A program made the position numbers and the translations under genes. This document shows, piece after piece, positions 7,191-7,806 of a DNA stretch of 64,000 nucleotides (the first letter of the stretch is position 1; each line of letters opens with the position of its first letter). This stretch comes from Thiomicrorhabdus immobilis. GTDB taxonomy: Bacteria; Pseudomonadota; Gammaproteobacteria; Thiomicrospirales; Thiomicrospiraceae. The notes below the pieces were generated by a model. That model made no database searches. It was not told the origin of the DNA and was given only the letters and a program-made list of their open reading frames with translations. The stretch is taken from NCBI RefSeq assembly GCF_021654855.1, contig NZ_AP024202.1, forward strand, positions 1,426,001-1,490,000. The letters run 5' to 3'.

Positions 7191-7206
7191 TGGCACAGCC
7201 CTTGAT
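7191..7206 (+). promoter_or_regulatory. Possible sigma-54 (-24/-12) promoter of the CheZ-like gene
   Basis: TGGCACA-N4-TTGA matches the sigma-54 consensus TGGCACG-N4-TTGC in spacing, but the second base of the -12 GC pair is A. It lies about 90 bases before the CheZ-like start, and sigma-54 control is common for flagellar genes. This is a tentative call. Confidence 0.3.
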
Positions 7207-7292
7207 ATAGGAGGTATTGTAAAAGCAAAAAATATCGTAAAACTGTCGATTAATTGACACTTTTACAGATAAAGAATAAAAGGAAACTCACC

Positions 7293-7739
7293 ATGTCGAC
7301 CATGAATACCACACAAAAAATTCAAACTTGTTTAGAGTTTATCGATCAGCGTTTAGAAACCACTTCTGAACAGACGATTCAAATTGCTGAAATGATTATT
7401 GCCGATATCAAACATTTAACCGAGGGTTACCAAGCGGCCATTGAGAGCGGTAATCTACAAAGTCATTCAGAATTGGTTAGAGCCACACAGATGAACTGGG
7501 TCAATCAATTACATGACATCATTCTGGAACAGACCAACCGCGATTTGAACGGTCAGGTGATTATCGCATTACAAAAATTTGTAAATAGTTTGAATGAAAA
7601 CCAACTCAAACACTACCCTTTTGAACTACCTAGTGCGGTAGCCAGCAAGCAACCACATGAACATGACTATTTAACACAAGACGAAATCGATATCTTGATG
7701 GGTCAGCAAAACCTATTTAACGATATGGTTACTCACTGA
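7293..7739 (+). CDS. Minimal CheZ-like chemotaxis phosphatase with FliM-like C-terminal peptide
   Basis: 148-residue helical protein, shorter than E. coli CheZ (214). Residues 83-89 read RDLNGQV, matching the CheZ active-site helix QDLTGQV; Asp84 and Gln88 line up with the catalytic Asp143 and Gln147. Near the C-terminus, YLTQDEIDILMG (126-137) resembles both the CheZ C-terminal CheY-binding helix and the FliM peptide LSQxEIDALL. The expected role is dephosphorylating CheY-P. The ATG at 7293 has an AAGGAAA ribosome site; an in-frame TTG at 7254 is a less likely start. The gene is alone, with no che operon beside it, and ends at a strong terminator. The link to CheZ rests on these two motifs. 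Confidence 0.6.
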   Translation: MSTMNTTQKIQTCLEFIDQRLETTSEQTIQIAEMIIADIKHLTEGYQAAIESGNLQSHSELVRATQMNWVNQLHDIILEQTNRDLNGQVIIALQKFVNSLNENQLKHYPFELPSAVASKQPHEHDYLTQDEIDILMGQQNLFNDMVTH

Positions 7740-7765: not shown

Positions 7766-7806
7766 AAAGTCCGCTTGGAGGTTTTTACCATCAAGCGGAC
7801 TTTTTT
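7766..7806. terminator. Terminator between CheZ-like and LysR genes
   Basis: AAAGTCCGCTTG pairs with CAAGCGGACTTT around a short loop and is followed by TTTTTT; it can end both convergent genes. Confidence 0.85.

Follow-up and report, generated by a model that had tools for sequence, protein, structure and literature searches.

The window analyzed here, a 64,000-nucleotide stretch of the Thiomicrorhabdus immobilis genome, contains on its plus strand a CDS (positions 7293 to 7739) for a short CheZ-like protein of 148 amino acids plus a stop codon; a preliminary description had proposed a 148-residue protein at this place, and the frame was found there. The ATG at 7293, which is preceded by AAGGAAACTCACC, was picked as the start codon since the alignment of relatives begins there. 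Residues 83 to 89 (positions 7539 to 7559, plus strand) read RDLNGQV and are, by sequence and profile alignment, the counterpart of the catalytic helix of CheZ; as had been numbered correctly before, the counterparts of the catalytic Asp and Gln are Asp84 (codon 7542-7544, plus strand) and Gln88 (codon 7554-7556, plus strand). Closer to the C terminus, residues 127 to 137 (positions 7671 to 7703, plus strand) read LTQDEIDILMG and form a FliM-like, putative CheY-binding peptide. In most members of the protein group, the tail is followed by a conserved C-terminal His, often as RH, TH, or HH (positions 7719 to 7736 in the window). Three patterns composed after the short protein had been inspected, DLxGQV and loose ones for the CheZ helix and for the FliM peptide, each had one match in the six-frame open translation of the window (85,147 residues), and all of these matches were in the short protein.

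Using a 24-member profile (E ≤0.01), we identified the short form in 42 of the 62 genomes of the family to which the window genome belongs, a family of sulfur-oxidizing-type bacteria, and in 35 of the 50 family genomes with a completeness of ≥90% and a contamination of ≤5%. An order-level search covered the same 62 genomes with the same tally, and among 369 genomes sampled from the class, none outside the family showed the short form. Of the named genomes, Thiomicrorhabdus sp. Milos-T2 has the closest relative (95% identity), and the 13 loci in named genomes carry the labels Thiomicrorhabdus, Thiomicrospira, Hydrogenovibrio, or Thiotrichales. Among the 148 codons, 54 silent and 8 amino acid-changing differences separate the window gene from its nearest relative, L019, and 62 and 25, respectively, separate it from L021. 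This excess of silent over amino acid-changing differences supports that the gene is under constraint at the protein level.

The short gene stands alone and lies divergently beside RluA-type pseudouridine synthase and YcgN-like genes in 12 of 12 loci with upstream sequence; the thirteenth locus, L012, starts 68 bases before the short gene and is outside this count. No che gene was recognized beside it in a non-systematic comparison with the window proteins and sequence starts, in agreement with the earlier view that it is encoded away from the che genes. Downstream, a terminator-like element read from the sequence (positions 7767 to 7806, plus strand) comprises an 11-base inverted repeat (AAGTCCGCTTG / CAAGCGGACTT; positions 7767 to 7802) with a 14-base loop, and a T run; our terminator scan, which had a loop limit of 8, did not report it. 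The repeat suggests a single-gene transcript.

Upstream of the gene, we identified a sigma-54-like element, TGGCAC-N5-TTGAT (TGGCACAGCCCTTGAT; positions 7191 to 7206, plus strand), which is conserved in relatives and matches TGGCA[CT]N5TTG[CA][AT], a pattern with no second match on either strand of the window. In the upstream regions of 40 of the 42 members (those of L030 and L103 were too short), TGGCA[CT]N5TTG was present within 200 bases in 31 and on the reverse strand in none, while shuffled upstream sequences gave a mean of 0.03 and the regions downstream of the 42 members had no match on either strand. The possible sigma-54 promoter of the preliminary description is thus backed by these 31 upstream regions. 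The nine members without the site are all seven of genus group g5, L040, and L091. The usual last element of a sigma-54 promoter is TTGCT; the window site ends in TTGAT, and several sites in the flagellar cluster end in TGCT.

The aligned sigma-54-like sites show a second block, a GTCA...TGAC palindrome, approximately 50 bases further on. In the window, this FleQ-box-like palindrome is GTCGATTAATTGAC (positions 7245 to 7258, no strand assigned), which matches 11 of the 12 informative positions of GTCAATNNATTGAC and is the sole site with at least 11 matches in the 64 kb. With a box pattern that was tested after the alignment had already revealed the palindrome, at least 10 of 12 positions matched upstream of 23 of the 40 members (shuffle mean 0.43, maximum 4) and downstream of 1 of 42, and at least 9 of 12 matched upstream of 33 of 40 (shuffle mean 3.8, maximum 10) and downstream of 3 of 42. 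The FleQ box described in PMC10723142 has GTCAAT and ATTGAC as inverted repeats with a two-base spacing, and PMC6120874 calls the FleQ consensus unreliable in Pseudomonas fluorescens. The combined sigma-54 and box pattern occurred once in the genome, at the short gene; a backwards control pattern also occurred once. Going by the title of work by Jyot from 2002, FleQ can reportedly bind downstream of an RpoN site. One flagellar sigma-54-like site, at 864460, has a 10/12 box 42 bases on; the other listed flagellar sites are mostly without one.

The window genome encodes four sigma-54 activators at E ≤1e-20, of which two lie inside the flagellar cluster. In this cluster, L165:3315-4421 (C1:883315-884421) is a 369-amino acid frame whose sigma-54 activator domain lies close to the start; a likely kinase and then a response-regulator activator come next. 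The frame looks like an FlrA/FleQ-type master regulator that has no N-terminal FleQ domain, consistent with the finding that the FleQ-domain family PF06490 had no match in the window genome at E ≤0.001. Flagellar sigma-54 control of the short gene is plausible; the identity of the palindrome as a FleQ box is not secured and serves only as a lead.

Against Pfam CheZ (PF04344), the window protein scored 18.5 bits, i.e., under the curated cut-off of 30.7, and no short form exceeded this cut-off in a profile search of a 58-genome set. Against the NCBIfam CheZ model (cut-off 257), it scored 17.8, and the normal CheZ of the same genome, at 104.5, is also under that cut-off. For the Pfam and profile comparisons, 40 of the 42 members were aligned (L091 and L097 were left out), and 34 of these matched Pfam CheZ at E ≤1 (best, 2.2e-6). 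The second family was GIT1_C, an unrelated helical family that matched 23 of the 40 (best, 8e-5), so part of the CheZ score may be a generic helix signal. The FliM domain (PF02154) had no match in the window protein among the families listed, and CheC, CheX, and FliY domains were absent from the four Pfam families listed for it at E ≤1. The best PDB sequence match was E. coli CheZ (1kmi; E 0.047), with which SPT16 ties, and BLASTP with the genome's own CheZ gave E 0.004 for that single pair, over the catalytic helix. The most divergent member, L091:1318-1818 (minus strand), was matched by the short-form profile but not by Pfam CheZ; its catalytic pair is D/Y, and the tail is missing.

Such weak single-sequence scores and the matches to other helical families would fit an unrelated helical protein in which the CheZ and FliM motifs are alike by chance. 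The profile-level data argue against this explanation. In a profile-profile comparison with 38 canonical CheZ sequences (E 5.4e-6, probability 85.7), residues 10 to 103 of the short protein aligned with residues 66 to 155 of CheZ, numbered according to the genome's own CheZ (L042:9538-10185), with the catalytic helices in register; the 38 rows had been selected by D[LIM]T[GA]Q[VI], and their catalytic conservation is no evidence. Nothing in the short protein corresponds to CheZ before residue 66 in this alignment, and about the first third of CheZ is missing. An unbiased profile search of the 369 genomes of the class matched four genomes at E ≤0.001, i.e., the window genome, a second genome from its family, and two from elsewhere in the class (L092 and L093), and the latter two matches are full-length CheZ proteins above the Pfam cut-off (50.7 and 250.9 bits, respectively). 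Outside the family, this search therefore met only CheZ. A weak match of the CheZ profile at genome position 300613 was discarded as a diguanylate cyclase. With the motifs also conserved across 42 genomes, a chance resemblance was already disfavored, and we regard it as very improbable. Together, these comparisons support that the short protein is a remote relative of CheZ, as the preliminary description had proposed with a profile search as the check, and not a PF04344 member by Pfam's own rule.

Using AlphaFold2, we obtained a first model from 24 sequences (mean pLDDT 57.2) and a second, single-chain model from 40 sequences (mean pLDDT 67.7), in which helices are predicted at residues 6 to 52, 55 to 81, 83 to 103, and 129 to 142. 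Helix 1 (residues 6 to 52; positions 7308 to 7448, plus strand) would form the first arm of a hairpin, and helix 2 (residues 55 to 103 with a break at 82; positions 7455 to 7601, plus strand) would form the second arm, in which the CheZ profile alignment places the CheZ motif. pLDDT was approximately 90 in the hairpin region (residues 31 to 70) and below 55 in the tail, so the helix at 129 to 142 is of low confidence. The predicted layout, at middling confidence, is an upper CheZ hairpin followed by a linker and a C-terminal helix. Structure prediction had been suggested earlier as a check; the single-chain hairpin fits the upper portion of the CheZ bundle at middling confidence only. Foldseek with the predicted model gave no match at E ≤0.001, and VIA-align returned generic helical hairpins with no CheZ among the matches listed, which is uninformative either way.

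The FliM-like tail, as detected with a fixed pattern, is present in 28 of the 42 members, in keeping with the C terminus described earlier. The FliM of the same genome starts with MDDILSQDEVDALLKG, its CheZ ends with ESQDDIDDLLNDLGI, and all 30 pattern-picked FliM N termini from the same family read LSQDEVDALL or, once, LSQDEVDALM. Based on simple position scores, the window tail scored 15.8 on the FliM table versus 9.6 on the CheZ table, and 15 of the 21 distinct short-protein tails were closer to FliM and 6 closer to CheZ; both peptide sets were picked by pattern, and one CheZ row was out of register. Judged by sequence only, the C-terminal peptide also qualifies as a counterpart of the CheY-binding helix of CheZ, and we consider it a putative binding peptide. 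In L092, a gammaproteobacterium from outside the family, the full-length CheZ (L092:1510-2163, minus strand) ends in NQDEIDDLFG, which is FliM-like and does not finish in the customary LGF; such a tail is thus found on a full-length CheZ as well as on the short form. In five members of genus group g6 (L094, L095, L098, L102, and L103), the tail is swapped for an unrelated conserved end, e.g., PFKNLM...KH or YHALLEAEV...HH, and these conserved ends may be a different binding motif.

The window genome also encodes a normal 226-amino acid CheZ; its gene lies between a cheY, which it directly follows, and a cheA-like gene, with a run of flagellar genes upstream. The preliminary description had named a second, normal CheZ next to che genes, in combination with a lack of CheY binding by the short protein, as grounds against its proposal; the first half is what we found. 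Because this CheZ lies beside cheY in the same genome, the short form is an extra protein and not a CheZ substitute, and the idea of a CheZ stand-in was abandoned. In a search of relatives in the 58-genome set, 22 of 24 short-form genomes also had a CheZ above the Pfam cut-off; the two without, G007 and G010, are 88% and 86% complete, respectively. FliM was found in 39 of the 42 short-form genomes, the other three being 83 to 88% complete, and in one place only in the window genome, in the flagellar cluster. The complete genome G035 is without FliM, CheZ, and the short form. With a normal CheZ present, the need for a second phosphatase is unexplained.

In the alignment of the 42 members, positions 84 and 88 are D/Q in 32, E/Q in 4, D/E in 3, and V/E, S/Q, and D/Y in 1 each; the conservation of Asp84 and Gln88 on which the earlier proposal relied therefore applies to most members but is not universal. 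Both the catalytic pair and the tail are present in 28 members, neither in 10, the residues without the tail in 4, and the tail without the residues in none. Two of the four members with the residues only, L077 and L078, read LTQEQIEALM and could be counted as tailed. The joint loss of the D/Q pair and the tail is striking by rows but would stem from few independent events, as the tree has just 4 and 5 changes with 3 independent pairs (sign test, p 0.5), and so has no statistical power. In the 10 members with an altered D or Q, the helical core is still recognizable, suggesting that there the core has another use or is decaying.

Based on these data, we consider it somewhat probable that the short protein is an accessory CheY-P phosphatase derived from CheZ and tethered by a motor-like peptide. 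The persistence of the helical core without the D/Q pair would also fit a non-catalytic CheY-P sink or motor competitor, in which the tail holds CheY-P and the hairpin merely dimerizes or anchors to a partner. The tail is the part of the protein closest to a known binding peptide, and phosphatase activity is already supplied by the normal CheZ. However, a pure binder has no need of the catalytic pair, and all 28 tailed members keep both Asp84 and Gln88, while the members that lost either residue are without the tail; we find a sink unlikely. The same chemistry could also serve another receiver, such as CheV, a second CheY-like protein, or the receiver of a flagellar two-component regulator. 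The gene is away from cheY and beside no recognized partner, and among the other receiver proteins encoded in the flagellar cluster are a CheY-like protein (L042:13679-14107) and a response regulator (L165:5589-7010). Against this explanation, which we judge to be improbable as well, the tail closely resembles the FliM peptide found in these genomes, whose expected partner is the flagellar CheY. Nothing was found that points to c-di-GMP or to the c-di-GMP adaptor role raised in the preliminary description.

In CheZ, the catalytic Gln positions the attacking water, and the Asp contacts a lysine of CheY. For an accessory CheY-P phosphatase of the kind that we favor, two chains would pair their hairpins to form a short four-helix bundle, and the FliM-like tail would capture CheY-P through the face with which CheY-P ordinarily docks on the motor. 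Gln88 would then place water for attack on the phospho-aspartate, with Asp84 contacting the CheY lysine. Given the resemblance of the tail to the peptide of the motor itself, the short protein would both dephosphorylate CheY-P and compete for it with FliM. Expression of the short gene would track that of the flagellar genes. We tentatively propose, as a possibility that we hold with considerable doubt, a second, flagellum-programmed CheY-P phosphatase in which a minimal CheZ hairpin with a copy of the motor's docking peptide competes with the motor for CheY-P, destroys the CheY-P that it captures, and sets the switching threshold of the motor independently of the receptor-linked CheZ. If the protein is active, about half the bundle length suffices for the CheZ catalytic unit, and this lineage has supplemented its normal CheZ with a second CheY-P phosphatase that carries a motor-like docking peptide. 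The minimal needs of CheZ catalysis and the competition between phosphatase and motor for CheY-P would then be testable with a small natural protein, for which the natural variants without the D/Q pair and the tail are built-in controls.

We found no account of a short CheZ-like protein in the open PubMed Central literature on CheZ. A survey of CheZ (PMC2829493) used E. coli CheZ as the query and required >180 aligned positions in its table, a threshold by which a 148-amino acid form would be missed. Divergent, remote CheZ homologues away from the main che genes are described for Campylobacterota in PMC9321776. Compared by description only, those homologues are treated as the CheZ of that group, whereas the short form coexists with a normal CheZ. 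Among the proteins compared here, the short form shares with CheZ (PF04344) the catalytic D/Q helix, the preceding helical arm, a linker, and a C-terminal peptide of the CheY-binding type, but differs in its length (148 versus 226 amino acids in this genome) and in its stand-alone gene. CheZ is approximately 214 amino acids at full length. Compared with the CheZ tail ESQDDIDDLL, the tail of the short form starts with L and reads DEID and is nearer to FliM. The similarity to the FliM N-terminal peptide (LTQDEIDILM in the short form, LSQDEVDALL in the FliM of the same genome) extends to the peptide, which in the short form sits at the C terminus of an otherwise unrelated helical protein. The CheZ of L092, which was found by the short-form profile, shares the FliM-like tail with the short form but, unlike it, has about full CheZ length.
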